From an uncultured Bacteroidales bacterium (GTDB lineage Bacteria > Bacteroidota > Bacteroidia > Bacteroidales > UBA11471), in the NCBI GenBank assembly GCA_944325415.1, contig CALUZW010000016.1, positions 1 through 54,095 on the forward strand: 54,095 nucleotides of DNA, in the 5' to 3' direction. Positions within the stretch are counted from its first letter, which is position 1, and each line of letters begins with the position of its first letter. The position numbers and the translations under genes were made by a program. Positions 6,456-54,095 of the stretch are shown piece after piece. Below the pieces are notes generated by a model that saw only the letters and a program-made list of their open reading frames with translations, was not told where the DNA came from and searched no databases.

Positions 6456-6632
6456 TTAATCTACAACCGTTACCAAGTGTCTTACTTTGGCAACCATCCC
6501 GAGTATTTGAGGAGTGGCCTGGTGTTCTACGACTTGACCTATTCTTTTCAAGCCCAGCGCATCAAGCGTTCTTTTTTGAACTGCGGGACATTTGATTCTG
6601 CTTTTTACCTGTTTGATCTTAATGGTTTCCAT
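6456..6632 (-). CDS. rpmD: 50S ribosomal protein L30
   Basis: L30, 58 aa, read from the ATG complementary to 6630-6632 to the stop at 6456-6458. It begins [20 protein letters not shown] and continues with [20 protein letters not shown], the ferredoxin-like fold typical of bacterial L30. A GGAGG Shine-Dalgarno-like motif lies about 7 nt before the start, notable because most starts in this operon lack one. It lies between rpsE and rplO. Confidence 0.95.
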
Positions 6633-6649
6633 ATCGTGTCCTCCGTTCT

Positions 6650-7165: not shown

Positions 7166-7170
7166 GTTGT

Positions 7171-7512: not shown

Positions 7513-7533
7513 GATAATGGCGTTTTAACGGTT

Positions 7534-8088: not shown

Positions 8089-8107
8089 AATACAGCCTCC
8101 TCCTTGG

Positions 8108-8503: not shown

Positions 8504-8570
8504 TTTGTTTTTTGTTTAAATTGATCCGGTCTTCCCGGACAATATTTAACACTCAGTTATCTGTCTTCGT

Positions 8571-8840
8571 TTACCAGCTAGCTTTCTTTACGCCGGGGAT
8601 GAGTCCTGCCGATGCCATTTCACGGAATTGAATACGGGAAATGCCAAACTGGCGGATGTATCCTTTGGGACGACCAGTAAGGCTGCAACGGTTGTGCAGA
8701 CGCACGGGCGAAGCGTTTTTGGGAAGTGATTGCAAAGCCTCATAATTGCCTTCGGCTTTGAGCTGAGCGCGCTTGGCTGCGTATTTGGCTACGAGTTTGG
8801 CGCGTTTCACTTCGCGAGCTTTCATCGATTCTTTTGCCAT
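8571..8840 (-). CDS. rpsN: 30S ribosomal protein S14 (long form)
   Basis: S14 (89 aa) of the long, zinc-independent class: there is no CxxC...CxxC cluster. It begins [20 protein letters not shown] and has the C-terminal [20 protein letters not shown] and [12 protein letters not shown] blocks. It is 3 bp after rplE and 67 bp before rpsH. Confidence 0.97.
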
Positions 8841-8843
8841 ATC

Positions 8844-9401
8844 TTAGTTCTTTTTTGCGTTTTTGAAAGGAAGACCAAATTCCCGGAGGAGTGCGTATCC
8901 TTCTTCATCGGTCTGTGCCGAGGTTACAAAGGTAATATTCATTCCCAAAAGTTTGGTAATCGTATCGATATTTATTTCGGGGAAAATGATTTGCTCCTGG
9001 ATACCGAGGGTATAGTTGCCTCTTCCGTCGAACTTGCTTTCGATACCTTTGAAGTCGCGGATACGGGGAAGAGCCACGCGAATGAGACGTTCGAGGAACT
9101 CATACATTCTTTCACGACGGAGGGTTACCATCACGCCGATGGGCATCTTCTTACGCAGCTTGAAGTTTGAGATATCTTTGCGGGAAAGGGTGGCAATGGC
9201 TTTTTGGCCGGTGATGGCAGTGAGCTCATTGATAGCCGTCTCGATAATCTTCTTGTCGGCTACGGCCTGTCCGAGTCCTTGGTTGATGACGATCTTCTTC
9301 AACACGGGCACCTGCATAACGGTCGTGTAGTTGAACTCTTTCATCAAAGCAGGAACGATTCTTTCTTTATAATCGTTTTTAAGGGTTGCGGTAGTTGTCA
9401 T
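8844..9401 (-). CDS. rplE: 50S ribosomal protein L5
   Basis: L5 (185 aa), a 5S-binding central-protuberance protein that contacts the P-site tRNA. The blocks [38 protein letters not shown] and [14 protein letters not shown] are canonical. Its start shares a base with the rplX stop region at 9401, suggesting translational coupling. Confidence 0.97.
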
Positions 9402-9721
9402 TACTTAATCTCCTCTCCTGATTTTTTAGAATAACGTACTTTCTTTCCTGCTTCGTCGAGACGATGACCGATGCGGGTAGGACGGTTGCTCTTGGGGTCA
9501 AGCAGGTTCAGATTCGAAACATGTACAGGGGCCTCCATTGTGATGATACCGCCCTGGGGATGTTTGGCATTGGGTTTGGTATGCTTCGACACCATGTTGA
9601 TACCTTCTACCACGGCACGTTGCTCTTTCACGAGAACACGCAGCACGCGACCGGTCTTACCTTTGTCTTCGCCGGCGTTTACATATACGGTATCACCCTT
9701 TTTAATGTGTAACTTACTCAT
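9401..9721 (-). CDS. rplX: 50S ribosomal protein L24
   Basis: L24 (106 aa), an assembly initiator near the polypeptide exit. The KOW motif is at about 8-30 ([20 protein letters not shown]), followed by [20 protein letters not shown]. The gene is 19 bp after rplN and touches rplE. Confidence 0.97.
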
Positions 9722-9740
9722 TAATGTTCTTTTTTACTGT

Positions 9741-10106
9741 TTAAAGTACTTCGGGGGCCAATGAAACAATTTTCATGTTGGTGGCACGCAATTCACGGGC
9801 TACGGGGCCGAAGATACGGCTACCTCTCATTTCACCGGCACCGTTCAACAATACGCAGGCGTTGTCGTCGAAACGGATATAGGAGCCGTCGGCACGACGT
9901 ATTTCTTTGGTGGTGCGTACGACAACGGCTTTGGATACGGCACCTTTTTTCAGGTCGCTCGAAGGGATGACGCTTTTTACGGCAACAACGATGATGTCGC
10001 CTACCGACGCATAACGACGACCGGTACCGCCTAATACACGGATACAAAGGGCTTCTTTGGCTCCGCTGTTGTCTGCGACTGTAAGTCGGGTTTCTTGCTG
10101 TATCAT
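9741..10106 (-). CDS. rplN: 50S ribosomal protein L14
   Basis: L14 (121 aa), at the subunit interface (bridge B8). It starts [20 protein letters not shown] and contains [20 protein letters not shown] and the [11 protein letters not shown] end block. It lies 1 bp after rpsQ. Confidence 0.97.
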
Positions 10107-10107
10107 A

Positions 10108-10365
10108 TTATTTTACTCTTTCGATGATTTCTACTAATCTCCATCTTTTCAGTTTGCTCAGCGGACGGGTTTCTCTCAGGCGGACGGTATCGCCGATGTT
10201 ACACTCGTTTTTTTCGTCATGAGCATGGTATTTCTTCGTCTTGTTAACGAACTTACCGTAAATAGGGTGTTTTTCTTTCCATTTCACAGCCACAGTGATG
10301 GTTTTGTCCATCTTGTTGCTGGTAACCACACCTATTCTTTCTTTTCTAAGGCTTTTTGTTTCCAT
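10108..10365 (-). CDS. rpsQ: 30S ribosomal protein S17
   Basis: S17 (85 aa), an OB-fold 16S-binding protein. The frame opens with [15 protein letters not shown] chose the second Met (10363-10365), matching the usual METxxLRKERxG start, though the upstream Met two codons earlier is possible. The core [20 protein letters not shown] and [20 protein letters not shown] is canonical. Confidence 0.95.
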
Positions 10366-10379
10366 GAGCACGAGTTCGA

Positions 10380-10577
10380 TTATTTGTTATTGAGTTCTCT
10401 TTGGCGCACCTCGCCTTTCATACGCGCGATTGTCCTGCGAAGAGCTTTTATTTGCGCAGGATTATCCAAGGGAGTAATGCTGTGGTTGATTTCCATGCGG
10501 TTCAAAGCGACAGCCTCAGCCTCGATTCTCTCGAGCAATTCTTTGGTGCTCAGTTCTTTTATTTCTGCAGTTTTCAT
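10380..10577 (-). CDS. rpmC: 50S ribosomal protein L29
   Basis: L29 (65 aa), a small helical protein at the exit tunnel that contacts trigger factor and SRP in characterised ribosomes. The sequence [20 protein letters not shown] and [16 protein letters not shown] fits the two-helix hairpin. It lies between rplP and rpsQ. Confidence 0.96.
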
Positions 10578-10583
10578 ACTTTA

Positions 10584-11015
10584 TCACGCATTTTGATTAG
10601 CATCATAGTCGTGTCTCACGACAAATTTGGTCGTCACGGGAAGTTTCTGGGCGGCCAGGCGGAGTGCTTCCTTGGCGATTTCGTAGGATACGCCTTCTAC
10701 TTCGAGAATGATTCTTCCCGGAGTTACAGGTGCTACGAATCCTTCGGGTGAACCTTTACCTTTACCCATACGTACTTCGGCAGGTTTCTTGGTGATGGGT
10801 TTGTCCGGGAATATTCTGATCCAGATCTGGCCCTGACGTTGCATGTAACGGGTAACGGCGATACGGGCAGCTTCAATCTGACGGCCGGTTATCCATTTCG
10901 ACTGCAAACTCTTTATACCAAAGGAACCGAAGGCCAATTGATTGCCTCGTCCTGCGAGACCTTTCATACGACCTTTTTGTTGTCTTCTGAATTTCGTTTT
11001 CTTCGGTTGTAACAT
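10584..11015 (-). CDS. rplP: 50S ribosomal protein L16
   Basis: L16 (143 aa), organises the A site of the large subunit. Diagnostic blocks are [39 protein letters not shown] and [16 protein letters not shown]. It is 6 bp before rpmC and 19 bp after rpsC. Confidence 0.97.
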
Positions 11016-11034
11016 TTTCTGTCAGTTCAATTCG

Positions 11035-11763
11035 TTAACGATTCGGTTTTGCTTTTTTGAAGCCTTTCTTTCCGCCGGCTTCACGATTACCGCGGGCCTC
11101 TTTGGGGCTCGATGTAAATTGAGGAGCGAGGTCTTTTTTACCGTAGATTTCACCGCGGCAAATCCAAACCTTGATACCGATAAGACCTACTTTGGTGAGT
11201 GCTTCAACCAAAGCATAGTCGATGTCGGCACGGAGAGTGTGCAACGGCGTACGGCCTTCTTTGTACATCTCCGAACGGGCCATTTCAGCGCCGTTGAGAC
11301 GACCCGACACCTGTACTTTGATACCTTCGGCACCGGCACGCATCGTCGAAGCGATAGCCGTCTTCACGGCACGACGATAGGCCATCTTACCTTCTATCTG
11401 GCGAGCGATATTGGTAGCAACGATGGTGGCGTCGACTTCGGGACGTTTTACCTCGAAAATATTGATTTGCACATCCTTATCGGTGATTTTCTTCAACTCT
11501 TCTTTGAGTTTGTCAACCTCTTGTCCACCTTTGCCGATGATGAGACCCGGACGGGCTGTACATACGGTAATGGTAATGAGTTTGAGGGTACGCTCTATCA
11601 CGATACGCGATACGCTTGCTTTTGCAAGACGGGCATTGAGGTATTTACGGAGTTTGCTATCTTCGAGCAATCTTTCGCCGTATTTTCTTCCTCCATACCA
11701 ATTGGAATCCCATCCACGGATAATTCCCAAGCGGTTACTTACTGGATTTACTTTCTGTCCCAT
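11035..11763 (-). CDS. rpsC: 30S ribosomal protein S3
   Basis: S3 (242 aa) lines the mRNA entry channel. It has [20 protein letters not shown] at the N-terminus, a KH domain with [20 protein letters not shown] (about 65-85), and the C-terminal domain with [20 protein letters not shown]. The last ~25 residues are Lys/Gly-rich. It starts 5 bp after rplV. Confidence 0.97.
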
Positions 11764-11768
11764 CCGGC

Positions 11769-12185
11769 TTAATTTTGATTTTCGGGTTTATTACTACTTA
11801 TGGTATCTACAAACAACGTAACGTGATTGGAACGTTTACGTATTCTATATCCGCGTCCTTGGGGAGCGGGACGAAGGCGTTTGAGCATGGCTGCCGAGTT
11901 GACATAGATCTCGGAGATGTAGAGCTCGCCGCTTTCGGCTTTGCGTTCGTTTTTCTGTTCCCAGTTGGCAATGGCCGAACGCAACAGTTTTTCCAGTCTG
12001 GCCGAAGCTTCCTTGTTTGAAAACTTCAATACGCCAAGTGCTTTGAATGCTTCCATTCCGCGTACCATATCGGCCACCAAACGCATTTTGCGGGGCGAGG
12101 TAGGCACGTTGTTGAGCTTGGCGAAATATTTCGTTTTCAGGGCTTCTTTTCTTTTATCGGCTGATATTTTTTTTCTTGCACCCAT
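11769..12185 (-). CDS. rplV: 50S ribosomal protein L22
   Basis: L22 (138 aa); its beta-hairpin lines the peptide exit tunnel. The protein contains [18 protein letters not shown] and the terminal hairpin [20 protein letters not shown]. It is 51 bp after rpsS. Confidence 0.97.
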
Positions 12186-12236
12186 TGTGTTAAAATCTTT
12201 TTTTATTTGAAATTCTCAAATTCCCGATAGCCCTTT

Positions 12237-12506
12237 TTATTTCTTCTTGTTGCCCGAGTGCCCACGGAAGATACGGGTGGGAGCGAATTCGCCCAGTTTG
12301 TGTCCTACCATGTTTTCGGTAACATATACGGGAATAAATTTATTACCATTGTGTACGGCGAAAGTGTGCCCCACGAAATCGGGAGAAATCATAGAGGCTC
12401 TCGACCATGTTTTGATGACGGCTTTTTTGCCCGACTCGGTCATGGCCGATACTTTCTTTTCCAGTTTCACACTGATATATGGGCCTTTTTTTAATGAACG
12501 ACTCAT
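12237..12506 (-). CDS. rpsS: 30S ribosomal protein S19
   Basis: S19 (89 aa), a head protein near the A site. It begins [19 protein letters not shown] and ends [19 protein letters not shown], the expected length and composition. It is 18 bp after rplB. Confidence 0.97.
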
Positions 12507-12524
12507 AGTTGCTTAGTTAACGAG

Positions 12525-13349
12525 TTACTTTTTACGTCTTTCTATAATATACTTCGACGAGAGTTTCTTCGGTGCTCTTGTCTTCAGACCCTTAGCGTAG
12601 AGGCCCTTGCGCGAACGCGGGTGTCCACCGGATGCACGGCCTTCACCACCACCCATCGGGTGATCAACAGGGTTCATTACCACACCACGGTTGCGGGGAC
12701 GACGGCCCAACCAGCGCGAACGTCCGGCTTTTCCGGAGCTTTCGAGAGCGTGGTCAGAGTTTCCGACTACACCTACCGTGGCTTTGCAAGTAGCCAGAAT
12801 CTTACGCGTTTCTCCCGAGGGCAACTTGATGATGGCGTAGTTGCCTTCACGCGAGGTGAGCTGGGCAAATGCTCCGGCCGAACGCACGAGAGCAGCGCCC
12901 TGTCCGGGACGTAACTCGATATTATGCACTACGGTACCTACGGGAATGTTTTGCAGGGGGAGTGCGTTTCCTACTTCGGGGGCTGCGTCGGCACCCGACA
13001 TGATGGTCATGCCTACTTCAAGGCCGTTGGGGGCGATGATGTAGCGCTTCTCGCCGTCGGCGTAAAAGAGCAATGCGATGCGAGCCGAACGGTTGGGGTC
13101 GTACTCGATGGTCTTTACGACAGCGGGAACACCGTCTTTGTTTCTCTTGAAGTCAATGAAGCGGTATTTGCGTTTGTGGCCTCCGCCAATGTAACGCATC
13201 GTCAGGTGGCCTTCGTTGTTGCGGCCACCCGATTTTCTAAATCCTACTACAAGAGACTTTTCTGGTGCGGTAGCAGTGATGTTGTCAAATGCACCAATAA
13301 TCTTGTGTCTCTGCCCCGGTGTTGTGGGCTTTAATTTTCTTACTGCCAT
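12525..13349 (-). CDS. rplB: 50S ribosomal protein L2
   Basis: L2 (274 aa), needed for subunit association and peptidyl transfer. It starts [19 protein letters not shown]. The C-terminal block [20 protein letters not shown] contains the conserved histidine of the PVDHPHGGGE-type motif; here the second His is Met. It lies 8 bp after rplW. Confidence 0.97.
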
Positions 13350-13357
13350 TGCTGTTA

Positions 13358-13648
13358 TTAAATATTGCTATAAAAATCTATCGTATCACCCTCTTTCAAG
13401 GTCACCAGTGCTTTTTTGTATTTGGCGGCACGGCCTTGAATCAAACCCGATTTGGTATAACGACTTTTGAGTTTACCTTTTCTCATGATCGTATTTACCG
13501 AAACAACGGTTACATTGTAGAGGCTTTCTACGGCTGCTTTAATCTGTTGCTTGTCGGCATCGGGGGTTACCGCAAAACCGTAACGGTTGAGTTTCTCTCC
13601 CATTGCGGTTACTTTCTCGGTTACTATTGGTTTAATAATTATTGCCAT
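13358..13648 (-). CDS. rplW: 50S ribosomal protein L23
   Basis: L23 (96 aa), the docking site for SRP and trigger factor at the exit tunnel. It contains [20 protein letters not shown] and the [20 protein letters not shown] loop. The start is preceded by AAAGGAGGT at a 6-nt spacing (plus-strand 13655-13663), the strongest Shine-Dalgarno match in the operon. Confidence 0.97.
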
Positions 13649-13666
13649 TATTTTACCTCCTTTATA

Positions 13667-14287
13667 TTAAAAGTTATTAATAGCAGCCAAAGAGCTTTCG
13701 GTCAATACAAGGCTGGCGCAATCCAGTACTTTGTATGTATTTAGCTCCGAGGTTGTTACAACTTTTGCCTTGGGCACATTTCGAGCCGACAAATATACGT
13801 TTTTATTTTCACTTCCTAAAACCAAAAGCATTTTTTTATCTGCAACTTTCAGATTTTGAGCGAAAGAGACAAAATCTTTGGTTTTGGGAGCTTCAAACGT
13901 AAAGTCTTCTACAACGCAGATGGCGTTTTCCTGTGCTTTGAGGGTAAGGGCCGACTTGCGGGCCAGCGCTTTGACTTTCTTGTTGAGTTTGAAGTCGTAG
14001 TTGCGGGGACGGGGACCGAATACGCGGCCACCACCTACCATGACGGGCGAGTTGATATCACCGCGACGGGCACCGCCAGAACCTTTCTGACGAATGAGTT
14101 TGCGGGTACTGCCCGATACTTCGCTTCTCTCTTTGGATTTGTGAGTACCTTGGCGTTTGTTGGCCATGTATTGTTTCACGTCGAGATAAATGGCGTGTTC
14201 GTTGGGCTCAATGCCGAATACTGCATCGTTCAACGTAACTTTCTTTCCCGTATCTTCGCCTTTGATGTTATATACGCTCAGTTCCAT
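13667..14287 (-). CDS. rplD: 50S ribosomal protein L4
   Basis: L4 (206 aa), with an extended loop in the exit tunnel. It begins [19 protein letters not shown]. The tunnel loop [20 protein letters not shown] and [20 protein letters not shown] is conserved. The N-terminal ATG overlaps the rplC stop by one base, so translation is probably coupled. No S10-type leader is visible upstream. Confidence 0.97.
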
Positions 14288-14904
14288 TACTTTTCAATTA
14301 TTACGATTGAACCTTTACAACCGGGTACCGAACCTTTGATAAGGAGGAGGTTGTGTTCCGGCATGATTTTCAACACTTGCAGGTTTTGCACGGTTACGCG
14401 CTCGTTTCCGGTCTGACCGGCCATGCGGGTACCTTTGAAAACCTTTGCGGGGTAAGAGCAGGCGCCTACCGAACCGGGGGCACGCAGACGGTTGTGCTGA
14501 CCGTGGGTGGTCTGTCCGACACCGCCGAATCCGTGGCGACCTACGACGCCCTTGAAGCCTTTACCTTTCGATGTTCCGATGACGTCTACATACTCGGCAC
14601 CTTCGAAAAGGTCTACCGTGATAACGTCGCCGGCTTTGTAAGCCTCTTCAAATCCTTTGAACTCGGCCAAGTGTCTCTTGGGGGTTACTCCGGCTTTTTT
14701 GAAGTGTCCCATTTCGGGCTGGGTGGTATGTTTCTCTTTCTTTTCGATGAAACCCACCTGTACGGCCTCATAGCCGTCAGCTTCAACCGTTTTTACTTGA
14801 GTAACTACGCAGGGACCTACTTCGATAACAGTGCATGGAACATTTTTTCCCTCGGCACTGAAAACGGATGTCATTCCGATTTTTTTTCCTAATAATCCTG
14901 GCAT
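14287..14904 (-). CDS. rplC: 50S ribosomal protein L3
   Basis: L3 (205 aa), near the peptidyl-transferase centre. It begins [20 protein letters not shown], and the key methylatable Gln region [20 protein letters not shown] and [20 protein letters not shown] is present. It starts 29 bp after the rpsJ stop. Confidence 0.97.
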
Positions 14905-14933
14905 TTCTCTGTGGTTTTTAATATAGGTTTATA

Positions 14934-15239
14934 CTACACTTTGATTTCTACTTCTACGCCGCTGGGCAATTCGAGTTTCATCAGGGCGTCGACTGTCTTG
15001 GCGGTGGAGCTGTAAATGTCGATGAGACGTTTGAACGAAGAGAGTTCGAACTGCTCTCTCGATTTCTTGTTCACAAACGTCGAACGGTTTACAGTGAAGA
15101 TGCGTTTGTGAGTAGGCAGGGGTATCGGTCCGCTGACCACGGCACCGCTGGCCTTAACAGTCTTTACAATCTTCTCGGCCGACTTGTCGACGAGGTTGTG
15201 ATCGTAAGATTTCAGTTTGATTCTAATTTTTTGGCTCAT
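14934..15239 (-). CDS. rpsJ: 30S ribosomal protein S10 (NusE)
   Basis: S10 (101 aa), a ribosomal protein and transcription antitermination factor partner of NusB and NusG. It contains [20 protein letters not shown] and [20 protein letters not shown], the canonical core. It follows fusA by 21 bp, with no tuf gene between, as is usual in Bacteroidetes. Confidence 0.97.
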
Positions 15240-15260
15240 ATTGGTTGTTTCTGTTCTATT

Positions 15261-17387
15261 TTACAATAAATCTACGCGGCCTTGTACTTCGGTGAGCACT
15301 TGTTTGGCAATCTGGGTGCTTACTTCGGCGTAGTGAGAGAACGACATGGTCGAGGTGGCACGACCCGAGGTTATCGTACGCAAAGCGGTTACATAACCGA
15401 ACATTTCGGCCAGAGGAGCTTTGGCTTTAACGATACGGGCACCTGAACGGCTCGATTCCATACCTTCTACCTGTCCACGACGTTTGTTGAGGTCGGATAT
15501 TACATCACCCATGCTCTCTTCGGGGGTTACTACCTCAATCTTCATGATAGGCTCTTGCAGCACGGGTTTGGCTTTTTCGCAGGCTTTCTTGAAGGCCTGG
15601 ATAGCGCACACCTCAAACGAAAGCTGGTCAGAGTCTACGGGGTGGAACGAACCATCGAGTACCGTTACTTTGAGACGGTCGAGGGGATAGCCGGCCAGCA
15701 CACCGTTCTTCATGGCTGTGGTGAAACCTTTCTGAATCGAAGGTATGAACTCCTTGGGAATGTTACCACCTTTTACTTCGTCGACGAATTGCAGACCGCT
15801 GCCTTCGAAGCTGTCGTCAGCGGGTTCTACACGCACGATGATGTCGGCAAATTTACCGCGACCACCGGTCTGTTTCTTATAAACCTCGCGCAGCTCAACC
15901 GGTTTGGTAATGGCTTCCTTGTAGGATACCTGGGGACGACCCTGGTTGCACTCTACCTTGAATTCGCGTTTGAGACGGTCGATAATGATTTCGAGGTGAA
16001 GCTCACCCATACCGCTGATAACGGTTTGTCCGGTCTCTTCGTCGGTCTTAACGGTGAAGGTAGGATCTTCTTCGGCCAGTTTCTGCAAACCGAGGCTGAG
16101 CTTATCCATATCTTTCTGGGTCTTGGGCTCAACGGCGATACCGATAACGGGATCGGGGAAGTCCATGGCTTCGAGTACGATGGGGGCATCTTCGGCGCAG
16201 AGGGTATCACCCGTGCGGATATCTTTGAAACCTACACCGGCTCCGATATCACCGCAACCGATTACCTCTTTGGGGTTCTGCTTGTTGGAGTGCATCTGGA
16301 AGAGGCGAGATACACGCTCTTTCTTACCCGAACGCGAGTTGAGTACATACGAGCCTGCGGGGATTTCGCCCGAGTATACACGGAAGAAGCAGAGACGACC
16401 TACATAGGGGTCAACGGCAATCTTGAAGACGAGGGCCGACATCTTTTCTTCGAAGAGCGGCTTACGTACCTCTTCTTTTTCGGGATCATCGGGGTTGTGA
16501 CCGATAATAGCGGGAGTATCTTCGGGGCTGGGAAGGTAGGCACATACGGCATCGAGCAGCGTCTGTACACCTTTGTTTTTGAAAGAAGAACCGCAAAGCA
16601 TGGGAACAATCGACATACTGAGCGTACCTTTTCTCAAAGCGGCACGAATTTCTTCGGGGGTGATGGTCGAGGGGTCGTCGAAATATTTCTCCATAACCAC
16701 GTCGTCGCACTCGGCGATTTTCTCGAGCATTTTGTCACGCCACTCTTCGGCTTCTTCTTGCAGAGATGCAGGAATTTCCTCCACGGTATAGTCAGCACCC
16801 ATGGTCTCATCGTGCCAATAGATAGCTTTCATCGTAATAAGATCTACTACACCTTTGAAAGTTTCTTCGGCACCGATAGGAATCTGCACGGGGCAAGGAT
16901 TGGCACCCAGCACATCTTTCAACTGGCGCACTACTTCAAAGAAGTTGGCACCCGAACGGTCCATCTTGTTGACATAACCTACACGGGGTACATTGTATTT
17001 GTCGGCCTGGCGCCATACGGTCTCAGACTGGGGCTCAACACCACCTACGGCACAGAAGGTTGCCACAGCTCCGTCAAGAACGCGCAACGAACGCTCTACC
17101 TCGGCGGTAAAGTCGACGTGACCCGGGGTGTCAATAAGATTGATTTTGTATTTATCGTTAGCATAGTTCCACCATGTGGTAGTAGCGGCCGAGGTAATCG
17201 TGATACCACGTTCCTGCTCCTGCTCCATCCAGTCCATCGTAGCGGCACCATCGTGTACCTCTCCGATTTTGTGGGTCAAACCGGTGTAGAAAAGAATACG
17301 CTCCGAAGTGGTCGTCTTTCCCGCATCGATGTGGGCCATGATACCGATATTTCTGGTATATTTGAGTTGTTCGTCTGCTTTTGACAT
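15261..17387 (-). CDS. fusA: Elongation factor G
   Basis: Translocation GTPase (708 aa). The G motifs are complete: [15 protein letters not shown] (G1), [12 protein letters not shown] (G2), DTPGHVDF (G3) and NKMDRSGA (G4). Domains II-V follow, with the domain IV region and the C-terminal [20 protein letters not shown] typical of EF-G. It is 26 bp after rpsG and 21 bp before rpsJ. Bacteroidetes often carry further EF-G paralogs, but this copy in the str position is expected to be the housekeeping one. Confidence 0.98.
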
Positions 17388-45591: not shown

Positions 45592-46467
45592 ATGGAAGTA
45601 AGAAAGATTTGCCAATGGTGTGGAAAACCATTCATCGCCAAGAAAACGACGACTTGCTATTGCAGTCATCAGTGTTCAAATCTCGGTTACAAAGAACGCA
45701 TCCGGGAACGCAAGCGCGAATTGAAGAAAATGCAGGAATTGCTGCAGCCCAAACAGGCATCCGAGGGACAAGACTTCTTTTCGTTTGCACAAGCGGCCAA
45801 ACTTATGGGTGTTACCCGTCAGTACATTTATAAGTTGGTCAAAGAAAACAAACTTCGGGCTTCCCGTATTAGCGGCAAGAAGTCACTTATCCGGCGTGCG
45901 GACATTGAGCTGATGCTGAAAACCAAACCTTACGAAAGCATTAAGCCCAAAGATGATGTAGATATTACCGAATATTATACTGCCGAGCAGATAGCTGAAA
46001 AGTACAAGGTAAACACCAAATGGGTATGGACATACACCAGAGAGCACGATGTTCCAAAGGTCAAGATTCGCCAGTTCAACTACTACAGCAAAAAACACAT
46101 TGATGCGATATTCGCCAAATACAGGACGGATGATGCCCTGACCGAATGGTACACTCCTGAAGAGATTGAGAAGAAGTACGGCATGACCCGTGTCGCCATC
46201 CGCTCGCAAGTCTATCGCAACAACATCCCTTCAAAGAAGGAACACGGACAGATATTCTACTCCAAACTTCATTTCGACCTGTCCAAGCAGACCGCCGAGA
46301 ACGATTCATCGGAATACTACACCGTGCAGGAAGCCATGAAGAAATACAACCTTACCAGGGATTCGGTTTACGGCATCCTACAATTTCACGAAATCAAACG
46401 GGAGAAGAAAGGCCGCTTCGTTCGGTTCCTGAAAGTAGAATTCGACCACATCATGGGAGCCCGTTAG
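45592..46467 (+). CDS. Zinc-ribbon protein with four tandem HTH repeats
   Basis: A 291-aa protein. The N-terminus has a Cys-rich zinc-binding motif (C7, C10, C22/C24, C28 in ICQWCGKPF and TTTCYCSHQC) and a basic helix (ERIRERKRELKKMQEL). Four repeats of an excisionase/MerR-like HTH_17 unit follow at about 63-110 (FSFAQAAKLMGVTRQYIYKL), 128-178 (YTAEQIAEKYKVNTKWVWTY), 186-233 (WYTPEEIEKKYGMTRVAIRS) and 242-289 (YYTVQEAMKKYNLTRDSVYG). This product type is found next to integrases in Bacteroides elements. Likely role: control of integrase expression or of excision. Confidence 0.75.
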   Translation: MEVRKICQWCGKPFIAKKTTTCYCSHQCSNLGYKERIRERKRELKKMQELLQPKQASEGQDFFSFAQAAKLMGVTRQYIYKLVKENKLRASRISGKKSLIRRADIELMLKTKPYESIKPKDDVDITEYYTAEQIAEKYKVNTKWVWTYTREHDVPKVKIRQFNYYSKKHIDAIFAKYRTDDALTEWYTPEEIEKKYGMTRVAIRSQVYRNNIPSKKEHGQIFYSKLHFDLSKQTAENDSSEYYTVQEAMKKYNLTRDSVYGILQFHEIKREKKGRFVRFLKVEFDHIMGAR

Positions 46468-46500
46468 CGGCTAAATGCAACCGACTGTAATTATCCGGAA

Positions 46501-46553
46501 ATTATTTCCTGCTGATTACGGTCTGCACAACATCATTAAAGATTTTCGCAGCA
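46501..46553 (+). repeat. 53-bp direct repeat, copy 1
   Basis: Matches 48658-48710 at about 40 of 53 positions without gaps, including TTCCTGCTGATTAC, TCTGC, ATCATT and GCAGCA blocks. This copy lies in the spacer before the integrase gene. Confidence 0.7.
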
Positions 46554-46586
46554 AAAATCAGTTATAACCATTTAATATTCATCATT

Positions 46587-47702
46587 ATGTCAGAATGCAA
46601 AACAGTAACATTGAGAACACGCCCATTGAAGAAGGGTATGCTGTCTTTCTACCTTGATTACTATCCGGGCTACCGTGACCAAGAAACGATGAAGACCATC
46701 CGTCATGAGGGATTGAATATTTACATCTATGCCAACCCGAAGAACCAGCGTGAACGGGACTTCAATGCCGTCATGTCGGAAAAGGCAGAAGCCATCCGAT
46801 GCCGGAGGTTTGAAGCCATCGTGAACGAAAGGTACGACTTTTTCGACAAGCACAAGTACAAGGCCGACTTTCTGGAGTATTACCGGAAGCAGCTCCGCAA
46901 GCACGACCAGAAATGGGCGTTTGTCTATCAGCACTTTTACAACTTCGTTCATGGTAAGTGTACTTTCGAAGAGATTGATGTCGACCTGTGCAACAAGTTC
47001 CGTGAATACCTGCTTAATGCAAGGCAGCTAAAGCGAAACAGACCGGTCTCAAGAAATTCCGCTGCGGGTTATTGGTCCACATTCAGAGGATTCCTGAAAA
47101 TCCTCTATCGTAACAGGATGATTAAGAGCAATGTCAATGACTTTCTGGATAAGATTGAAACGGAAGATATCGCAAAAGACTATCTGTCGGTCGAAGAACT
47201 GTACAGACTGGCCGAGACACCTTGCAAGATACCTGTTCTTAAAACTGCTTCCCTCTTTTCGTGTCTGACCAGCCTGCGGCTCAGTGATGTGCTTTCCCTT
47301 TGCTGGGAAGAAATCGTTGACTTTGCCGCCGGAGGAAAATGCGTCCATACCATCACGCAAAAAACAAAGACAGAAGACATCATCCCGATAAGCGATGAAG
47401 CGTTGAGACTGATAGACTACAGCCCTGAAAAGACAGGATTGGTTTTCAAAGGTCTGAAACGGAGTTGGACACAGCATCCGATGAAAGAATGGATTCGTTC
47501 TGCTGGAATCACGAAGGACATAACTTTCCACTCATACCGCAGAACATTCGCTACCCTGCAAGCTGCCGCAGGGACAGATATCCGTACCATCCAAAGCATG
47601 ATGGCGCACAAGTGCATTACTACCACGCAACGATATATGAAAGTCGTGGACAGCAACAAGCGTGAAGCGAGCACTAAAATCACTTTGACAAGGAAGGGCT
47701 GA
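46587..47702 (+). CDS. Tyrosine recombinase (site-specific integrase)
   Basis: A 371-aa phage-type integrase. An N-terminal arm-binding region and a SAM-like core-binding domain (about 85-185) precede the catalytic domain. Active-site residues: R231 (LTSLRLSDVL), a Lys at 259 or 261 (TQKTKTEDII), H315 and R318 (FHSYRRTFAT), H341 (MMAHKCITTTQ) and nucleophile Y350 (QRYMKV). All are intact, and the first Arg is present, unlike IntDOT. It should insert and excise the element. A strong terminator follows. Confidence 0.95.
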   Translation: MSECKTVTLRTRPLKKGMLSFYLDYYPGYRDQETMKTIRHEGLNIYIYANPKNQRERDFNAVMSEKAEAIRCRRFEAIVNERYDFFDKHKYKADFLEYYRKQLRKHDQKWAFVYQHFYNFVHGKCTFEEIDVDLCNKFREYLLNARQLKRNRPVSRNSAAGYWSTFRGFLKILYRNRMIKSNVNDFLDKIETEDIAKDYLSVEELYRLAETPCKIPVLKTASLFSCLTSLRLSDVLSLCWEEIVDFAAGGKCVHTITQKTKTEDIIPISDEALRLIDYSPEKTGLVFKGLKRSWTQHPMKEWIRSAGITKDITFHSYRRTFATLQAAAGTDIRTIQSMMAHKCITTTQRYMKVVDSNKREASTKITLTRKG

Positions 47703-47729
47703 CCGGCTTGTCTTTGCCCCCTTTTTATC

Positions 47730-47779
47730 GGTTAGAGTATGATTTTTCGCTGGAAATCATACTCTAACCATATTTTTTC
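47730..47779 (+). terminator. Strong terminator after the integrase gene
   Basis: GGTTAGAGTATGATTT (47730-47745) and AAATCATACTCTAACC (47754-47769) form a perfect 16-bp stem with an 8-nt loop, followed by ATATTTTTTCT. Confidence 0.9.
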
Positions 47780-47833
47780 TTAATTCCCGGTTGATTTTCT
47801 ATCGTTATTTATTACTATCTGCAAACGGGCATC

Positions 47834-47841
47834 TAATTTTG
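47834..47841 (+). promoter_or_regulatory. -7 element before the membrane-protein gene
   Basis: TAATTTTG matches TAnnTTTG, 31 bp before the ATG at 47872 and downstream of the integrase terminator, consistent with a separate transcription unit. Confidence 0.45.
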
Positions 47842-47871
47842 CCGTAGTGAAATTTCAAATAACGACAGTCT

Positions 47872-48672
47872 ATGGCAGATAACAACAGACCCACCATCAA
47901 GAAAGCAAGCCTTGTCCTTGCATTGACGTGCATCATTTTTGCGACAGTTGCCACAATATTGTACAAGAATCATCAGATTGGTTCGATTGGCTACTCTGCT
48001 CCATTTGTAATTGGCACAGTAGTGGCAATCCTTTCATGTGCTGCACTGCAACGCCTGTTCTGTTCACTGTTCGGCAAGGGCTATTTTTCTTTTGGCTGTA
48101 AAGTTTCTCCTAAAACAGAAGCCGTTTCAATAGGGATAAACACTGATAACCCAAAGGTACTTTCGCAAACAGACAATACAGCCAGTGCGGTCAGTACTAT
48201 ACCTTCGTACCTCAAAGAATATGAAACACGCATGGAAGAACTGGAGCGTGCGAAAAAGGAAAGACGGACTGCAATAGTCCGCACCATTCATGACTATACC
48301 ACATATATAATGGCAGAGTTTTTCACCAAAGAAAAACTTGAAACGCTCCATGAGAACATAGACGCTTTGGCTTACGGACAACCGGAACTATACAAACCAA
48401 TCCGTTCTAAAGAGGAAAATCCCATCAAGTCTCCTGCTTTAAGGCATTTTGCATGGAATATCGGAGAGAGACTTGACATTCCGCTAATCGACAGAGCAAA
48501 ATTCATAAAAGAAATATTCCCACATGAGCTAGGAAGTGCGACGATCGAATATCTTTCCAAGAACCTCAGAGACTCTGTTACGAGCAAAATCAAGATCGAT
48601 GTGCCTGAAAATGGGGACTATCAGTTTGACTGCATGAGAAATTTTGCTGACGGAAAAATTAGTTCCTGCTGA
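47872..48672 (+). CDS. Two-TM hypothetical membrane protein of the element
   Basis: A 266-aa protein of unknown function. Two hydrophobic helices at about 12-31 (ASLVLALTCIIFATVATILY) and 41-66 (YSAPFVIGTVVAILSCAALQ) are followed by a mostly hydrophilic cytosolic part with a charged helix around EYETRMEELERAKKERRTAI. No catalytic motif is recognisable. It lies between the integrase and the HTH gene, and its last codons overlap the second copy of the 53-bp repeat. Confidence 0.6.
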   Translation: MADNNRPTIKKASLVLALTCIIFATVATILYKNHQIGSIGYSAPFVIGTVVAILSCAALQRLFCSLFGKGYFSFGCKVSPKTEAVSIGINTDNPKVLSQTDNTASAVSTIPSYLKEYETRMEELERAKKERRTAIVRTIHDYTTYIMAEFFTKEKLETLHENIDALAYGQPELYKPIRSKEENPIKSPALRHFAWNIGERLDIPLIDRAKFIKEIFPHELGSATIEYLSKNLRDSVTSKIKIDVPENGDYQFDCMRNFADGKISSC

Positions 48673-48710
48673 TTACAATCTGCCTAATATCATTGTATTG
48701 GTTTGCAGCA
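48658..48710 (+). repeat. 53-bp direct repeat, copy 2
   Basis: Pairs with 46501-46553. It overlaps the 3' end of the membrane-protein gene and runs to the leader of the excisionase-like gene. Confidence 0.7.
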
Positions 48711-48735
48711 TGTTAAACAATTAAATCGTTTAGTC

Positions 48736-49110
48736 ATGCTAAAAGAAAACCTTACATTCAACGACCTGCCGGAAATGGTAGGCAAACTTTGCGAAAGAAT
48801 CGAGAGCCTTGAAAATGCGTTGAAAGACACCCTCGTAAAACAGGCTCCGGTCAAAGAAAACCTGCATGTCCCCATGACTGTGGAGGAAGTATGCAGCTAT
48901 CTCGGAATATCAAAATCTTCCTTCTATTACAAAGCCAAGCACGGAGGAATTCCCACCATCAAACAGGGCAAGCACCTGTTTGTCTATCGTGACGAACTGG
49001 ACAAATGGCTGGAGACTGGGAGAATAGGTCAGGTGCCGCTGAGCATCGAAGAAGAACACGAACAAATGCTTGCGGCGACAAGACACAAGGCTAATCCTAA
49101 GAACTTGTAG
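48736..49110 (+). CDS. Excisionase-like HTH protein
   Basis: A 124-aa protein; ATG 48736 is preferred over the in-frame TTG at 48703. An N-terminal helix (FNDLPEMVGKLCERIESLEN) is followed by an HTH_17 domain (about 45-95: MTVEEVCSYLGISKSSFYYK, HLFVYRDELDKWLETG), typical of excisionase/recombination directionality factors in Bacteroidetes elements. It lies 4 bp before the RepA-like gene and is probably cotranscribed with it. Confidence 0.8.
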   Translation: MLKENLTFNDLPEMVGKLCERIESLENALKDTLVKQAPVKENLHVPMTVEEVCSYLGISKSSFYYKAKHGGIPTIKQGKHLFVYRDELDKWLETGRIGQVPLSIEEEHEQMLAATRHKANPKNL

Positions 49111-49114
49111 GAAT

Positions 49115-50185
49115 ATGGAAAAGACAAACAGCAATATTCCTACTCCGGAGGAACTGAAAGCCTACATAGATGAATCGGTCATCAGCGTAACCGGAACATA
49201 CGAGCAGTCCGCTTCCGTGCTGATGGTGGATGATTCCATAATCGGGACTCTCGGAAACTTCAGTGCATCCATTGGAAAAGCCAAAAGCAAGAAGACCTTC
49301 AATGTCTCAGCTATCACTGCGGCTGCCCTGATAAACGGCACGGTGCTGCATTACCGTGCCTGCTTCCCGGAGGACAAAAGAAAGATCCTCTACATTGACA
49401 CGGAACAGGGGAAAAACCATTGTCAGATTGTTCTGAATAGAATCCTAAGACTGGCAGGTCTGCCAAATGATAGTAATACAGACAACTTGATGATGCTGGC
49501 ACTTCGGAAATATTCGCCCGAAGTGCGATTGGCTATAACGGAACAGGCAATCGGCATGATACCGGACTTGGGACTGGTCATTATCGATGGCATCCGTGAT
49601 TTCGTCTATGACATCAATTCACCCGGTGAGTCCACCGAAGTAATATCCAAACTCATGCGGTGGACTGATGACAGGCAGATACACATTCATACCATCCTGC
49701 ATCAGAACAAGAATGATGAACACGCACGGGGACATGTCGGCACGGAACTGAACAACAAGGCGGAAACCATCATGCAGATTGAAGCGGACAAGGACGACAA
49801 ATCCATAAGCGTGGTGAAAGCACTACATATCCGTGACCGTGAGTTTGAATCTTTTGCTTTCCGGATAAACGATGAATGCCTGCCCGAAACGGTAGAGTTC
49901 TACCAGCCTCAAAAACGGCAGGTTGGACGACCATCCAAAGAACCGTTTGACCCTTATAAAGAAATCCCGGAGAATATGCACCGTTCCGCCCTAAACGCTG
50001 CTTTTGAGGACGGTAATATCAACGGCTATGACAACTTTCTCGAACGGCTGAAAGAGGGCTATGGACGGCAAGGTATAAAATTGGGATACAACAAGGCTGT
50101 GAAGATGGCTACATTCCTGAGCAACAAGCGAATGGTTGTAAAAGAGGGCAAGGAATACAGGTATAACCGAGATTTCCATTATTGA
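49115..50185 (+). CDS. RepA-like RecA-fold ATPase of the mobile element
   Basis: A 356-aa AAA/RecA-like protein (start ATG 49115, 4 bp after the HTH stop). The P-loop reads IGKAKSKKTF at 53-62, so Lys stands where the second Gly of GxxxxGKT is expected. Walker B is LVIIDGIRD (D158), and HQNKNDEHARGHVGTELNNK fits the conserved sensor region. The C-terminal ~90 residues contain FDPYKEIPENMHRSAL. Related plasmid RepA proteins are replicative helicases, so a role in element replication or post-excision maintenance is likely. Confidence 0.78.
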   Translation: MEKTNSNIPTPEELKAYIDESVISVTGTYEQSASVLMVDDSIIGTLGNFSASIGKAKSKKTFNVSAITAAALINGTVLHYRACFPEDKRKILYIDTEQGKNHCQIVLNRILRLAGLPNDSNTDNLMMLALRKYSPEVRLAITEQAIGMIPDLGLVIIDGIRDFVYDINSPGESTEVISKLMRWTDDRQIHIHTILHQNKNDEHARGHVGTELNNKAETIMQIEADKDDKSISVVKALHIRDREFESFAFRINDECLPETVEFYQPQKRQVGRPSKEPFDPYKEIPENMHRSALNAAFEDGNINGYDNFLERLKEGYGRQGIKLGYNKAVKMATFLSNKRMVVKEGKEYRYNRDFHY

Positions 50186-50904
50186 GACACTGGCGTTAAA
50201 CTCTATCGGTGTGACATTTCCCGGCTTTACTTTATTGCTGGGGTGTAGATATAAGAATAAAGCAAAGTGATGGCAGGTTTCATCATGCAGGTGCAATCTG
50301 CCATTTTCCTTTTGTATGTTCGCTGGAATCCGGACAGCCCCCGCATCGTATGAGATGTAGTATCAATCCGTACCGGGCTTGCCCGTATGCCAGTAGAACT
50401 CCGTAGGGGGGAGCCTAATACCCCACTCGCCTTTCGGCGGCGGGATGCGTGCCATTTCAAGCAGCAAACTGGGCACGGAAAATCACTATCGGGATTGGAC
50501 AGAGCACGAAAGGTTCTTTCTCTCGTATAGTCGACTATGTTTCGGCTCTATGCACATAGTTTCCGGATAAAAACCGGTTAGGACTTTAACCAAGTTATGC
50601 TTTCGAGGAACTGTTGCCTTCGGAACAAAAAAGTATCAAAGATACCCATCGCTACCTAAGCGAAAAATCGTCATCATAGTATACGGAATTATTCGGCAGG
50701 ACATTGTACAATTCAACACCCTAACTGTTGGATATGATGTTGATTTTATCTCCCCTATTTTCGGACTTGGGTTGCCGTGTCTATAACCAAAATCTCTATC
50801 GGAACTAAGCAGTGAATGTCCAATGCGCATACCACATCCACTTCTGCTAAGATTGGCTCATGTTATGGCAGACTTCTATCATGGGATTTGGCAGGTGAAA
50901 TTTC

Positions 50905-51009
50905 GTGGATTGGATAATCTTTGCCATGATTGACTTTGAAAATCCGGTAAACACTGAGATAACATCTGACAAGATAAATTTTAAGTCTTGGTCAACATAT
51001 CCAATCCAC
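50905..51009. repeat. 12-bp inverted repeat flanking 81 bp
   Basis: GTGGATTGGATA at 50905-50916 is the exact reverse complement of TATCCAATCCAC at 50998-51009. It may form a long-range stem or mark the ends of a small inserted element; no transposase is present. Confidence 0.55.
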
Positions 51010-51152
51010 CAATATCATAAGTACCGCTTCTATAGCCTGTGCAAATCGGCACCACTATATTTGAAACGAAGAAAAATCAGATTAAATCTGTGTAAATTTT
51101 TACAAATCCTATATCACATCTTGAGAGGCGATATAGACTACTAATCCCATAA

Positions 51153-51197
51153 AATGTTTAATTAGGAACATTTATTGAATATCCCTAATTAAACATT
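51153..51197 (-). terminator. Probable terminator of the drmAB transcript
   Basis: AATGTTTAATTAGG (51153-51166) pairs perfectly with CCTAATTAAACATT (51184-51197), 24 bp past the drmB stop. In the minus-strand sense a TTTTA stretch follows. The stem is AT-rich, so the terminator may be weak. Confidence 0.6.
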
Positions 51198-51220
51198 GGC
51201 GTATTATAGTATAATCATTA

Positions 51221-53374
51221 TTATAAACGATCTATTGCAACAAGATTCTTAAAGAATCCGTATTCTTCATCTATTAATGCTCGTCTGTCTAATCCCATAT
51301 TCTGATGTTCACACGAAGTCTCAGAAACCATGGTACAACTAAAACATGACGCCTTATTTAAACTATCTTCATTTTCCCAACACAAAGGATCTGATGAACA
51401 ATTTACTGCACGTTTCATTGCAGATTCAATAATGCCACTAATAAGTCGAGGTTGTCCTTGCCATACAAGGCCACCCATACTACCTTCTGCACCATCTGCT
51501 GTATAAATAAGTACACCACACATTTTATCTGAATAATATAGGCGCTCGCTCAGACTTGCAGTAGGATAACCACAAGTAAACTCAAGCTCCTTCATTAACA
51601 CATGGCTGAATGTATGAAGTAGATAAAATTTAGCTCTCCCATAAAGAGAAATTTCCTCATATAAGAACTCTCCTAATGCTCCACTATCAAGTTGACATTT
51701 ATAATGATCATTTAAATTATGTTCCTCAGTCCACTTTTCAATTGCCTCCATATTAAATGCAAAAAATAAACCTTCGCCGTACGTTTGATTAGCAGGTAAC
51801 ACATATATGTCGGTAGGTGTACCATCAAAAATAGCTTTCATTTCATCACCTGGAGGGACAATCTTTCCATTATTATCAAGTTTAGATGTCGGCATATTTA
51901 CTCGGCCAAAACCCAATTGTATATTTGTAAGAGAAAGTGTATTTACTTGCTTTATTGTTTTAAAATACGGCTGCAAAGAACTTGGAATAATAATTTCATT
52001 AAATTCCAACCCTTTTGATTTTCGATTGGGATCATTAACATCTGTAAGGACTTCAAATTCTGTTAATCTATACGTTGCAACAGGATCATTATCTTCCTCT
52101 TCTATCATTAACCCAAGAAACAAATTTTTAATATTTTCATAATCAATATCTGTCAAATTACACTGCCAATTAATATTTGCATCTTCAATAAAATCATCAC
52201 AATCATTATACTTTTTCTCCCAAAATTCTTTTTTTGACATTCCTGGTTTTCTAGCAATCATTGCGTTGTATTTTTCTATAACTTTACTTAACGCAGTTCG
52301 AGCTTCATCATTTAACTGACCAGATTTCTGTGGAATAAAATCCTTAGGAATATACAAACTACTAAAACCACTTGCATAGTATATGCTATTACTTGTTACC
52401 ATAGCTACTTGCATCTTAGTCTTTTGTCCCATTGACAAACATCGTTCGTATGTATTTTCTCTGTTAACCCATGGACGTTCACCTCGACAATAAGGCTTAA
52501 TATTCATTATACCAGCTAATGAAACAGAACGTTCACATTTTGAACATTTTAGTGTTCCCCATGATTCAGCCTGATTACGAGAATTTAGCCATTTAATATT
52601 ATGCTTACCCCCACAACTACAATCTTCACAGTCGTAACCAAACAATTCAAAACCGGCATCATCGTCCATTTTCTCATGTTTAAGAGAGGCACAGAAGAAT
52701 TTATACCAAGGAATATCTGATATATGCCCATTAGGACAAATAAGAATAAGTGGAACCGGTTTTAATAGACCATATTCTATATCATCATGTAAAACTTCAG
52801 CCTTTATTTTTCTAGAAGTTTTCTTATTTGGATCACGTGGAGGAACAAAATATGTCATTTTCCCATCGTTACATTTACGTATCTGCCATTCCTTACGCCA
52901 TTCATTAAGTGGTTTGATTTCAGAATTAACAGATATGAACCACTGAGGGAAATTAATAGCCGGGATATAGAACATATCTTCGCCCAACTCTGTTCCTAAT
53001 CGTGCCTTAATAAATTCATAAAGTGGATTGCCTTTACGTTGTATTTGGTTATATGAATTCAGTTGAATATGGGGAATTGCAATAAAACATTTTAATTGGG
53101 AAAATCCTTTTTTGATATTTAAAAATTCCACAAAACGCTGGTCTTCAATTAGTTCAACCCCACAATCTTCTTGAATTTTGGGGATATTTAAAGCTTGTGG
53201 AAGTATTTCCTTTATTTTATTTGATACGACCTCTACAAATTTCCAGTTATCAATACTTAATGGCATAATAAAACCTCCCCACTTAGTAGTGATGATAGAT
53301 CCTACTCCTGCAGTAGACAAGATTTTATACTTGCCCATAGATTGGTTATATTGATTCTCTTTACGTATATCCAT
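51221..53374 (-). CDS. drmB: DISARM protein DrmB (DUF1998)
   Basis: A 717-aa protein. The N-terminus MGKYKILSTAGVGSIITTKW is the family opening. Two Cys clusters suggest zinc binding: C249/C252/C254 with C277/C280 (YDCEDCSCGG, LKCSKCERS), and the C-terminal DUF1998 set around C659-C688 (CSSDPLCWENED, SCFSCTMVSETSCEHQN, GLDRRAL). The core includes LHTFSHVLMKELEFTCGYPT and DGAEGSMGGLVWQGQPRLIS. In known DISARM, DrmB forms a complex with the DrmA helicase and the pair acts on invading phage DNA. It starts 4 bp after drmA, so the genes are cotranscribed. Base composition is AT-rich, a sign of horizontal transfer. Confidence 0.88.
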   Translation of the reverse strand: MDIRKENQYNQSMGKYKILSTAGVGSIITTKWGGFIMPLSIDNWKFVEVVSNKIKEILPQALNIPKIQEDCGVELIEDQRFVEFLNIKKGFSQLKCFIAIPHIQLNSYNQIQRKGNPLYEFIKARLGTELGEDMFYIPAINFPQWFISVNSEIKPLNEWRKEWQIRKCNDGKMTYFVPPRDPNKKTSRKIKAEVLHDDIEYGLLKPVPLILICPNGHISDIPWYKFFCASLKHEKMDDDAGFELFGYDCEDCSCGGKHNIKWLNSRNQAESWGTLKCSKCERSVSLAGIMNIKPYCRGERPWVNRENTYERCLSMGQKTKMQVAMVTSNSIYYASGFSSLYIPKDFIPQKSGQLNDEARTALSKVIEKYNAMIARKPGMSKKEFWEKKYNDCDDFIEDANINWQCNLTDIDYENIKNLFLGLMIEEEDNDPVATYRLTEFEVLTDVNDPNRKSKGLEFNEIIIPSSLQPYFKTIKQVNTLSLTNIQLGFGRVNMPTSKLDNNGKIVPPGDEMKAIFDGTPTDIYVLPANQTYGEGLFFAFNMEAIEKWTEEHNLNDHYKCQLDSGALGEFLYEEISLYGRAKFYLLHTFSHVLMKELEFTCGYPTASLSERLYYSDKMCGVLIYTADGAEGSMGGLVWQGQPRLISGIIESAMKRAVNCSSDPLCWENEDSLNKASCFSCTMVSETSCEHQNMGLDRRALIDEEYGFFKNLVAIDRL

Positions 53375-53378
53375 AATA

Positions 53379-54095
53379 TTATTTATTTAAAATGTGAAGA
53401 ACTGCTTCAGGTTCAACTAATCTTAATGCAGATGGCACAACCCATTTGCTGGCAGCTTTTTGTTCCGAATAATCATCTGTAGAAACAAACAGAGATACTT
53501 CTTCAGTTTCTCTCCGACCAGCCGCATAATAGACTAGGGAATCGCTGTATTGTTCCGTTTTATTTACCCATTGATCAAGGCTTTCATCAATCCATTGATA
53601 TATGTAACATAATTGTTCCTTTGTTATAATTTCGCGCTCTAGCGCATGCATTATGGGATCAAGAGCCTGAGTTCTTGTATAACGATTTTCAAAATATTTT
53701 TTCAGTTCACGTTTTAATTCTGCTGCGGTTGGGACTAACATCCTGCTTGCATTTTTACGGTCAGCAAGATTTTTATATAAATGCCTAATCATGGTTGCCA
53801 TATATAGAGGCATATACTTTTCCACAGCCTTTGGTGAAAATGGAGTAATAGAAATCGGCTCAACATAATAATACAACTTTTCATGAAATTCTCTAAACCT
53901 CTCAAAATGTGACACATCCCGAGAACGAAAGGGATTGTGTAATGTTAAGACTAATCCTTCTTTATCACGTGCTACACGAGAACTTGCCTGAATATACTCA
54001 GCAATGTTTCTAGGCATGGAATTAATTATGATTGTATTAAAACGACTTACATCAAGTCCCACTGATATCATATTTGTTGCTAAAATATAATCAGC
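53379..54095 (-). CDS. drmA: DISARM helicase DrmA, C-terminal part (cut by window edge)
   Basis: An open frame runs off the right edge. The 238 visible residues are the C-terminal part of a superfamily 2 helicase. Motif V reads ADYILATNMISVGLDVSRFN and motif VI EYIQASSRVARDKEGLV (R-finger region), followed by the helical tail of DrmA-type proteins (FRSRDVSHFERFREFHEKLY). Motifs I-IV and any N-terminal domain lie outside. It is directly upstream of drmB with a 4-bp gap. It could be another DUF1998-associated helicase, but pairing with DrmB makes DrmA the best call. Confidence 0.85.
   Translation of the reverse strand, partial: ADYILATNMISVGLDVSRFNTIIINSMPRNIAEYIQASSRVARDKEGLVLTLHNPFRSRDVSHFERFREFHEKLYYYVEPISITPFSPKAVEKYMPLYMATMIRHLYKNLADRKNASRMLVPTAAELKRELKKYFENRYTRTQALDPIMHALEREIITKEQLCYIYQWIDESLDQWVNKTEQYSDSLVYYAAGRRETEEVSLFVSTDDYSEQKAASKWVVPSALRLVEPEAVLHILNK

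Follow-up and report, generated by a model that had tools for sequence, protein, structure and literature searches.

A DISARM-family drmA-drmB operon end without drmC in an uncultured Bacteroidales bacterium

The window that we analyzed spans an entire contig (54095 bases). Its right end holds drmB and the remainder of drmA, both on the minus strand; the features of this region are collected in Table 1. The drmB gene is complete, with start and stop both within the window, and encodes a protein of 717 aa. This protein scores 291 bits against the NCBIfam model NF038324 (DrmB_fam), above the cut-off of 240 that marks a DUF1998-family DrmB, and it matches the PADLOC DrmB model at 2.2e-52. Among solved structures it matches 7s9v_B alone (4.5e-39). 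The same chain is the best Foldseek match of the predicted DrmB model (2.3e-17); the pLDDT of this model is only 63, and we used it solely for this one clear match. Each of the four cysteines of the predicted zinc-binding cluster, C659, C665, C677, and C680, is a cysteine in 28 of 28 aligned DrmB homologues.

Table 1. Features at the right end of the window
Feature	Position	Strand	Evidence
Excisionase-family protein, three HTH_17 repeats	45592..46467	+	PF12728, three stretches; TIGR01764
Tyrosine integrase	46587..47702	+	PF00589, 2.7e-20
Excisionase-family HTH protein	48703..49110	+	PF12728; TIGR01764
AAA_25 ATPase	49070..50185	+	PF13481, 28.3 bits, cut-off 27
Stretch from the ATPase gene to drmB, without drmC	50186..51220	.	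ORF list, Rfam
Hairpin after drmB, possible transcription end	51153..51197	-	20-nt arms, 5-nt loop, z-score -5.1
drmB, DUF1998/MZB family, complete	51221..53374	-	ORF, PADLOC, NCBIfam, 7s9v_B
MZB (DUF1998) zinc-binding domain, DrmB residues 589-681	51332..51610	-	PF09369, 27.1 bits, cut-off 24.2
DrmB four-cysteine cluster C659, C665, C677, C680	51335..51400	-	Predicted zinc binding
drmA, last 238 codons, no start	53379..54095	-	ORF, PADLOC, NCBIfam, 7s9v_A
DrmA motif VI, QASSRVAR	53967..53990	-	Read from translation
DrmA motif V, ATNMISVGLD	54051..54080	-	Read from translation

The drmA gene has no start, as it is cut off by the contig edge at 54095. What is left is the helicase end of the protein, with motifs V and VI, plus a C-terminal arm. 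We take ATNMISVGLD to be helicase motif V and QASSRVAR to be motif VI with its arginine finger. The fragment matches only the C-terminal quarter of PADLOC DrmA (614-828 of 837 model positions, 8.7e-47) and 7s9v_A from motif V onward (4.5e-25), and this C-terminal piece also matches the NCBIfam DrmA model. The drmA stop lies 4 bases before the drmB ATG, and the two are separate genes. The family matches of DrmB and of the DrmA fragment support the drmA-drmB pair that had been proposed in a sequence-only reading of this DNA.

Since the fragment cannot fetch full-length relatives, we used the C-terminal part of the DrmA of a related genome, G359, as the query and kept the best 120 of 3147 homologues. 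Thirteen of these 120, with lengths of 1356-1372 aa, share 80-85% identity with the fragment; 25 of the 120 rows of this comparison were viewed one by one. All 112 DrmA proteins in the set that reach 1250 aa keep GGGKT, DELH, motif V, and motif VI, and the patterns ATNM.S.G.D and Q..SR..R each occur in 112 of the 112. The full-length DrmA of G359 scores 742 bits against NF038325, whose equivalog cut-off is 950; by the NCBIfam rule it is therefore DrmA-like, not DrmA, and this counts against our best explanation.

That the locus is a decayed relic, with drmA broken past the edge or a drmAB remnant stranded beside an integrative element, is very improbable. Only 238 drmA codons are present, and the DrmA model found no further piece of the gene in the source assembly, which is 83% complete. 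However, the break in drmA coincides with the contig end, the reading frame that remains is uninterrupted and keeps motifs V and VI, and the four cysteines of DrmB are conserved. The sequence-only reading would have taken loss of the helicase P-loop or a broken drmA as signs of a relic. The P-loop belongs to the missing part of drmA, outside the window, where only motifs V and VI are visible; the close relatives, with their full-length drmA and intact motifs, disfavor a relic. Up to the contig edge the locus is intact, nothing points to decay, and the truncation is the contig end. Because the assembly yielded no other drmA piece, what lies upstream is knowable only from relatives.

On the other side of drmB lies an A+T-rich inverted repeat with arms at 51153-51172 and 51178-51197 that are 90% complementary. 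The transcript of this hairpin folds 5.1 sd better than shuffled sequences, and a terminator scan made no call on it; the inverted repeat that had been described as terminator-like is present. The gene-poor kilobase reported there is confirmed: the stretch from drmB to the ATPase gene wholly contains no ORF of at least 80 codons and no Rfam match at gathering score. A RepA gene had been placed next, on the opposite strand. Both the strand and the ATPase hold, with the AAA_25 match just above its cut-off; the RepA name belongs to the sequence-only reading, and we take the protein to be RepA-like, a name that fits. Together with the excisionase-like protein and the tyrosine integrase, this ATPase looks like a mobile-element module. 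The DISARM genes may therefore be its cargo. DrmB had no match in the six other genomes of the same genus among 149 relatives searched (0/6), which fits a recent gain of the gene.

To place the locus, we built a tree of 47 DrmB proteins. The window falls in an 18-row clade (support 100/100) with G359, G873, and database proteins. A sister clade of four (97/94) comprises G035 (locus L031), G301 (L032), G458 (L050), and G774 (L051), and the two clades are joined at 100/98. The nearest DrmB proteins with DNA context are those of G359 and G873, both 50% identical to that of the window. Near homologues (P0001-P0043) are listed as proteins without DNA context. Besides the window's own genome, no relative of at least 80% identity with DNA context was found in a search that covered 149 relatives, 393 + 393 + 329 genomes of the order (overlapping draws), 15 of the family of G359, 395 of the phylum, 301 of the family of G065, and 4 of one genus. 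On viral contigs there was no DrmB, and DrmA appeared there at five distant loci (31-34%). The phages searched gave no match. Among plasmids, 65 records matched, all less than 60% identical, and a scan of genome contigs gave three flavobacterial loci at 28%.

DrmC, the PLD-family protein that PADLOC requires for DISARM types I and II, is absent after drmB in the window. Here the sequence-only reading was right: drmB is followed by the hairpin and then by the divergent ATPase gene. The one PADLOC match in the window with the DrmC label scores 18 bits and falls on the excisionase-family protein. The relatives show the same absence. None of 23 ORFs downstream of drmB in 20 relative loci has PLDc_2 (0/23), and a Planktothrix drmC used as a control does match. 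These 20 come from 30 relative loci besides the control; the scan left out L032 and L034 (whose next ORFs are 1015 and 1133 aa), the plasmid loci L055, L058, L059, and L060, and L006, L035, L054, and L057, which have <400 bp after drmB. Of the 37 Pfam families in the table for the downstream ORFs, 25 were viewed. Turning to whole contigs, PF13091 (PLDc_2) is found on the drmB contig in 0/7 genomes (those of the window, G359, G873, G035, G301, G458, and G774), and four of these contigs, that of the window among them, stop inside drmA, just upstream of it, or within the preceding gene. With no PLDc_2 after drmB or on the drmB contigs of the relatives checked, the lack of a neighboring drmC seems characteristic of the lineage.

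Elsewhere in the genome, PF13091 matches occur in all seven. G458 and G774 are listed as 100% complete, and such matches are confined there to frames of 699 and 709 aa, a length that would suit polyphosphate kinase. Two other contigs of the window's genome, C3 and C9, hold PLDc_2 frames of 486 and 693 aa. A PLD enzyme could therefore act from a distance, which speaks against our best explanation.

The genes upstream of drmA can be seen in the sister clade. All three loci with an intact upstream region (L031, L050, and L051) have the order C5 methylase, NERD nuclease-helicase, 829-aa protein, drmA, drmB. Their genes abut, with the methylase at 568-598 aa and the NERD nuclease-helicase at 576-582 aa; in L032, the contig ends inside the gene of the 829-aa protein. 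The five-gene operon of L050 occupies 4850-17378. The methylase of L031 is a C5 enzyme (PF00145), and cytosine methylases also lie upstream in L046 and L055. L031 is the one sister operon of which every gene before drmB was compared with the PADLOC models; no DrmD was listed for it, and DrmMI did not appear in the top 25 of its 48 methylase matches.

In the NERD nuclease-helicase, read by eye, E, D, and ExK of NERD and Walker A/B of the helicase, which we take to be the catalytic residues of the nuclease and the motifs of the helicase, are kept in 7 of 7 aligned copies. Of 31 relative loci, 9 have a gene that matches a profile of this protein at <=2e-70, and 7 of the 9 had supplied sequences for that profile; one of the nine, L058, counts by its profile match. 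Both the profile and the motif check were made without the L059 reference. At two plasmid loci, from Rhizobium and Azospirillum, an annotated NERD gene sits directly 3' of drmB, in the place of drmC. The 829-aa protein has a predicted fold that resembles an SF2 helicase and lacks a P-loop motif (the family alignment has 44 rows, of which 15 were viewed). It has no detectable sequence relation to DrmE, whether to the NCBIfam model or to the DrmE of L046. The family was not found in the window's own assembly, a weak negative. Among the matches listed, and judged by eye from the length of the longest contig, no member of the 829-aa family shares an apparent source assembly with a DrmB or DrmA, whereas several DrmA-DrmB pairs do share one, and this too counts against our best explanation.

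These neighbors bear on whether the locus is a conventional DISARM whose drmC and methylase lie upstream of drmA, past the contig edge. This is improbable. Although the region upstream of the window's drmA is beyond view and cytosine methylases do lie upstream in the sister-clade loci, L046, and L055, no drmB contig of the seven genomes carries PF13091, and the only matches in G458 and G774 are in the 699- and 709-aa frames. Among ORFs before drmA in L031, L050, L051, and L046, there was no match to drmC in a weak scan with a single drmC query. The sequence-only reading had offered drmC upstream of drmA as one option, and this finds no support: in the sister clade, the position is taken by the methylase, the NERD nuclease-helicase, and the 829-aa protein. 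Its other option, a DrmAB system that works with other partners, agrees better with these data, but no such partner is visible in the window's own clade.

Another possibility is that the operon of this clade begins with drmA and that drmAB is a two-gene unit using nucleases from elsewhere in the genome. Among relatives in the window's clade, G359 alone retains DNA ahead of drmA: 117 bp without a recognizable gene, followed by the contig end. By this evidence drmA may be the first gene in the window's clade. The PLDc_2 proteins on other contigs of the window's genome would suit such a unit, and nuclease recruitment from elsewhere has been proposed for DrmAB in the available text of PMC9142583. 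We nevertheless consider a two-gene unit unlikely. The argument comes from one locus, where the contig ends; two frames of the 117 bp are closed by stops, but one stays open over 39 codons up to the edge and may be the tail of a gene. Moreover, all three upstream-intact sister loci have three more genes directly before drmA. A five-gene operon for the window would follow by analogy with the sister clade; the three upstream genes are not visible in the window itself.

The visible genes fit neither PADLOC DISARM type, because both types I and II require DrmC; type II (class 2) comprises DrmA, DrmB, DrmC, DrmE, and DrmMII, according to the part of PMC9252829 available to us. For the same reason, such loci would not be reported as those types (PMC9252829, in part). 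Given this demand for DrmC and the score of the G359 DrmA below its cut-off, we call the locus DISARM-family and not type I or II. With type II it shares the split DrmA and DrmB genes, and the sister clade has, as type II does, a C5 methylase and an ~830-aa protein, the size of DrmE, upstream of drmA. It differs in having no DrmC, and the sister clade differs in that its 829-aa protein has no DrmE match and that it has the NERD nuclease-helicase. The Serratia DISARM (7s9v/7s9w) is matched by the DrmB of the window and, from motif V onward, by its DrmA, but its operon includes drmC and adenine and cytosine methylases, as far as PMC9142583 was available, and none of these is visible in the window. 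L046, from a genome of the same order (G363), has the NERD-helicase in its operon and, in the one ORF scanned after drmB, no match to drmC; it differs in having DrmE (NF038316, 7.5e-181) and a strong DrmMII, and its DrmB is distant from that of the window.

Two further systems share parts of this layout. Nhi-like NERD-helicase systems (PF08378) have the NERD and helicase layout of the sister-clade gene, and the NERD-helicase homologues of L045 and L046 match PADLOC Nhi weakly. In the accessible text of PMC10952713, however, Nhi-like systems are listed as systems of their own, whereas the sister-clade gene sits in a drmAB operon. ARMADA, like this locus, has a YprA-family helicase and a DUF1998 module at its core. 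There, the helicase and OB-CON-DUF1998 usually form a single protein that carries a C-terminal Vsr nuclease (PMC12458937, in part), whereas the window has two genes, and drmA with its own stop codon is not fused to drmB. Helicase and DUF1998 as separate genes are the DISARM arrangement, sporadic elsewhere, in the same text.

We think it fairly probable that this is the end of a DISARM-family operon without drmC, in which a predicted DrmAB motor loads on single-stranded ends of phage DNA, blocks replication, and likely hands cutting to a nuclease other than DrmC. In the available text of PMC9142583, DrmAB binds single-stranded and 5'-overhang DNA once a loop of DrmA is displaced, ATP hydrolysis is needed, and DrmAB may block replication and recruit a nuclease, possibly one encoded elsewhere. 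By analogy with those structures, the DrmA-DrmB pair of the window would be an ATP-driven DNA motor, held autoinhibited by a loop in DrmA, that loads on exposed single-stranded ends of phage DNA and translocates. It would then block replication of the phage DNA.

A candidate for the loop is at hand. An acidic stretch of 40 residues, with 13-22 acidic residues and starting at residues 62-96, is present in 23 of 23 aligned listed DrmA relatives, and this region, near DrmA residues 60-130, could be the autoinhibitory loop. The stretch is not specific to the branch, because DrmA proteins of other clades (L004, L046, and L061) also have one.

Cutting of the phage DNA, if any, is likely by a nuclease of another family than DrmC. 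If the sister clade is a guide, this would be the NERD-domain nuclease-helicase, and the cytosine methylase would mark self DNA. We advance more tentatively, as a possibility short of an even chance, that these loci form a separate and widespread Bacteroidota branch of DISARM. In it, the NERD nuclease-helicase would replace DrmC, a helicase-like scaffold or sensor without a P-loop would replace DrmE, and DrmAB would capture ends for NERD to cut.

DISARM without DrmC is not new. DrmC is dispensable and often missing, and the way DNA is degraded is called a mystery, in the available text of PMC9142583. PMC12458937, also seen in part, describes the YprA family, DISARM in which the PLD protein DrmC follows the DUF1998 gene, and a clade of DISARM-like systems that includes many uncharacterized classes; NERD is linked there with TALON and not with DISARM. 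It was the only paper we found that treats DISARM, DUF1998, and NERD together, and in literature judged largely by titles, we found no description of a NERD-DISARM. The suggestion of a variant defense system had therefore overstated the novelty, given the DrmC-less DISARM already reported and the many uncharacterized DISARM-like classes. The window locus is a variant and not a new kind of system. A DrmC-less branch with a NERD nuclease in the sister operon would bear directly on how DISARM destroys phage DNA.

Beside drmB lies a module of the window that resembles a mobile element, as judged by Pfam and family-model matches. Its products are a tyrosine integrase and an AAA_25 ATPase, together with two HTH proteins of the excisionase family and a 266-aa protein with no match in Pfam. 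Elsewhere in the window, an S4-Bacteroidia ribosomal protein leader RNA scores above the gathering score.

Coordinates of the module, the RNA element and genes near drmAB in related loci
Locus	Position	Feature
Window	2594-2627	leader RNA
Window	45592-50185	module
L004	1793-3904	Argonaute
L005	725-3883	Argonaute
L059	9410-11017	NERD
L060	9421-11106	NERD
L045	10537-12552	MzaE/AbiU match
L050	4051-4767	HNH

In two flavobacterial loci (L004 and L005), a prokaryotic Argonaute gene immediately precedes an ~800-aa gene, drmA and drmB, and the one in L005 additionally matches a SIR2-containing Argonaute model. Annotated NERD-domain genes stand immediately 3′ of drmB, in the position of drmC, in plasmid drmAB loci of Rhizobium and Azospirillum (L059 and L060); in L060, a DarT-family gene comes next. 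Other genes also follow drmB in relatives: in Psychroflexus sp. CAK1W (L050), 83 bp separate drmB from a downstream HNH endonuclease gene, and 12 bp past drmB in genome G221 (L045) is a gene matching PADLOC MzaE and AbiU, which probably accounts for the AIPR match among the ORFs scanned after drmB.
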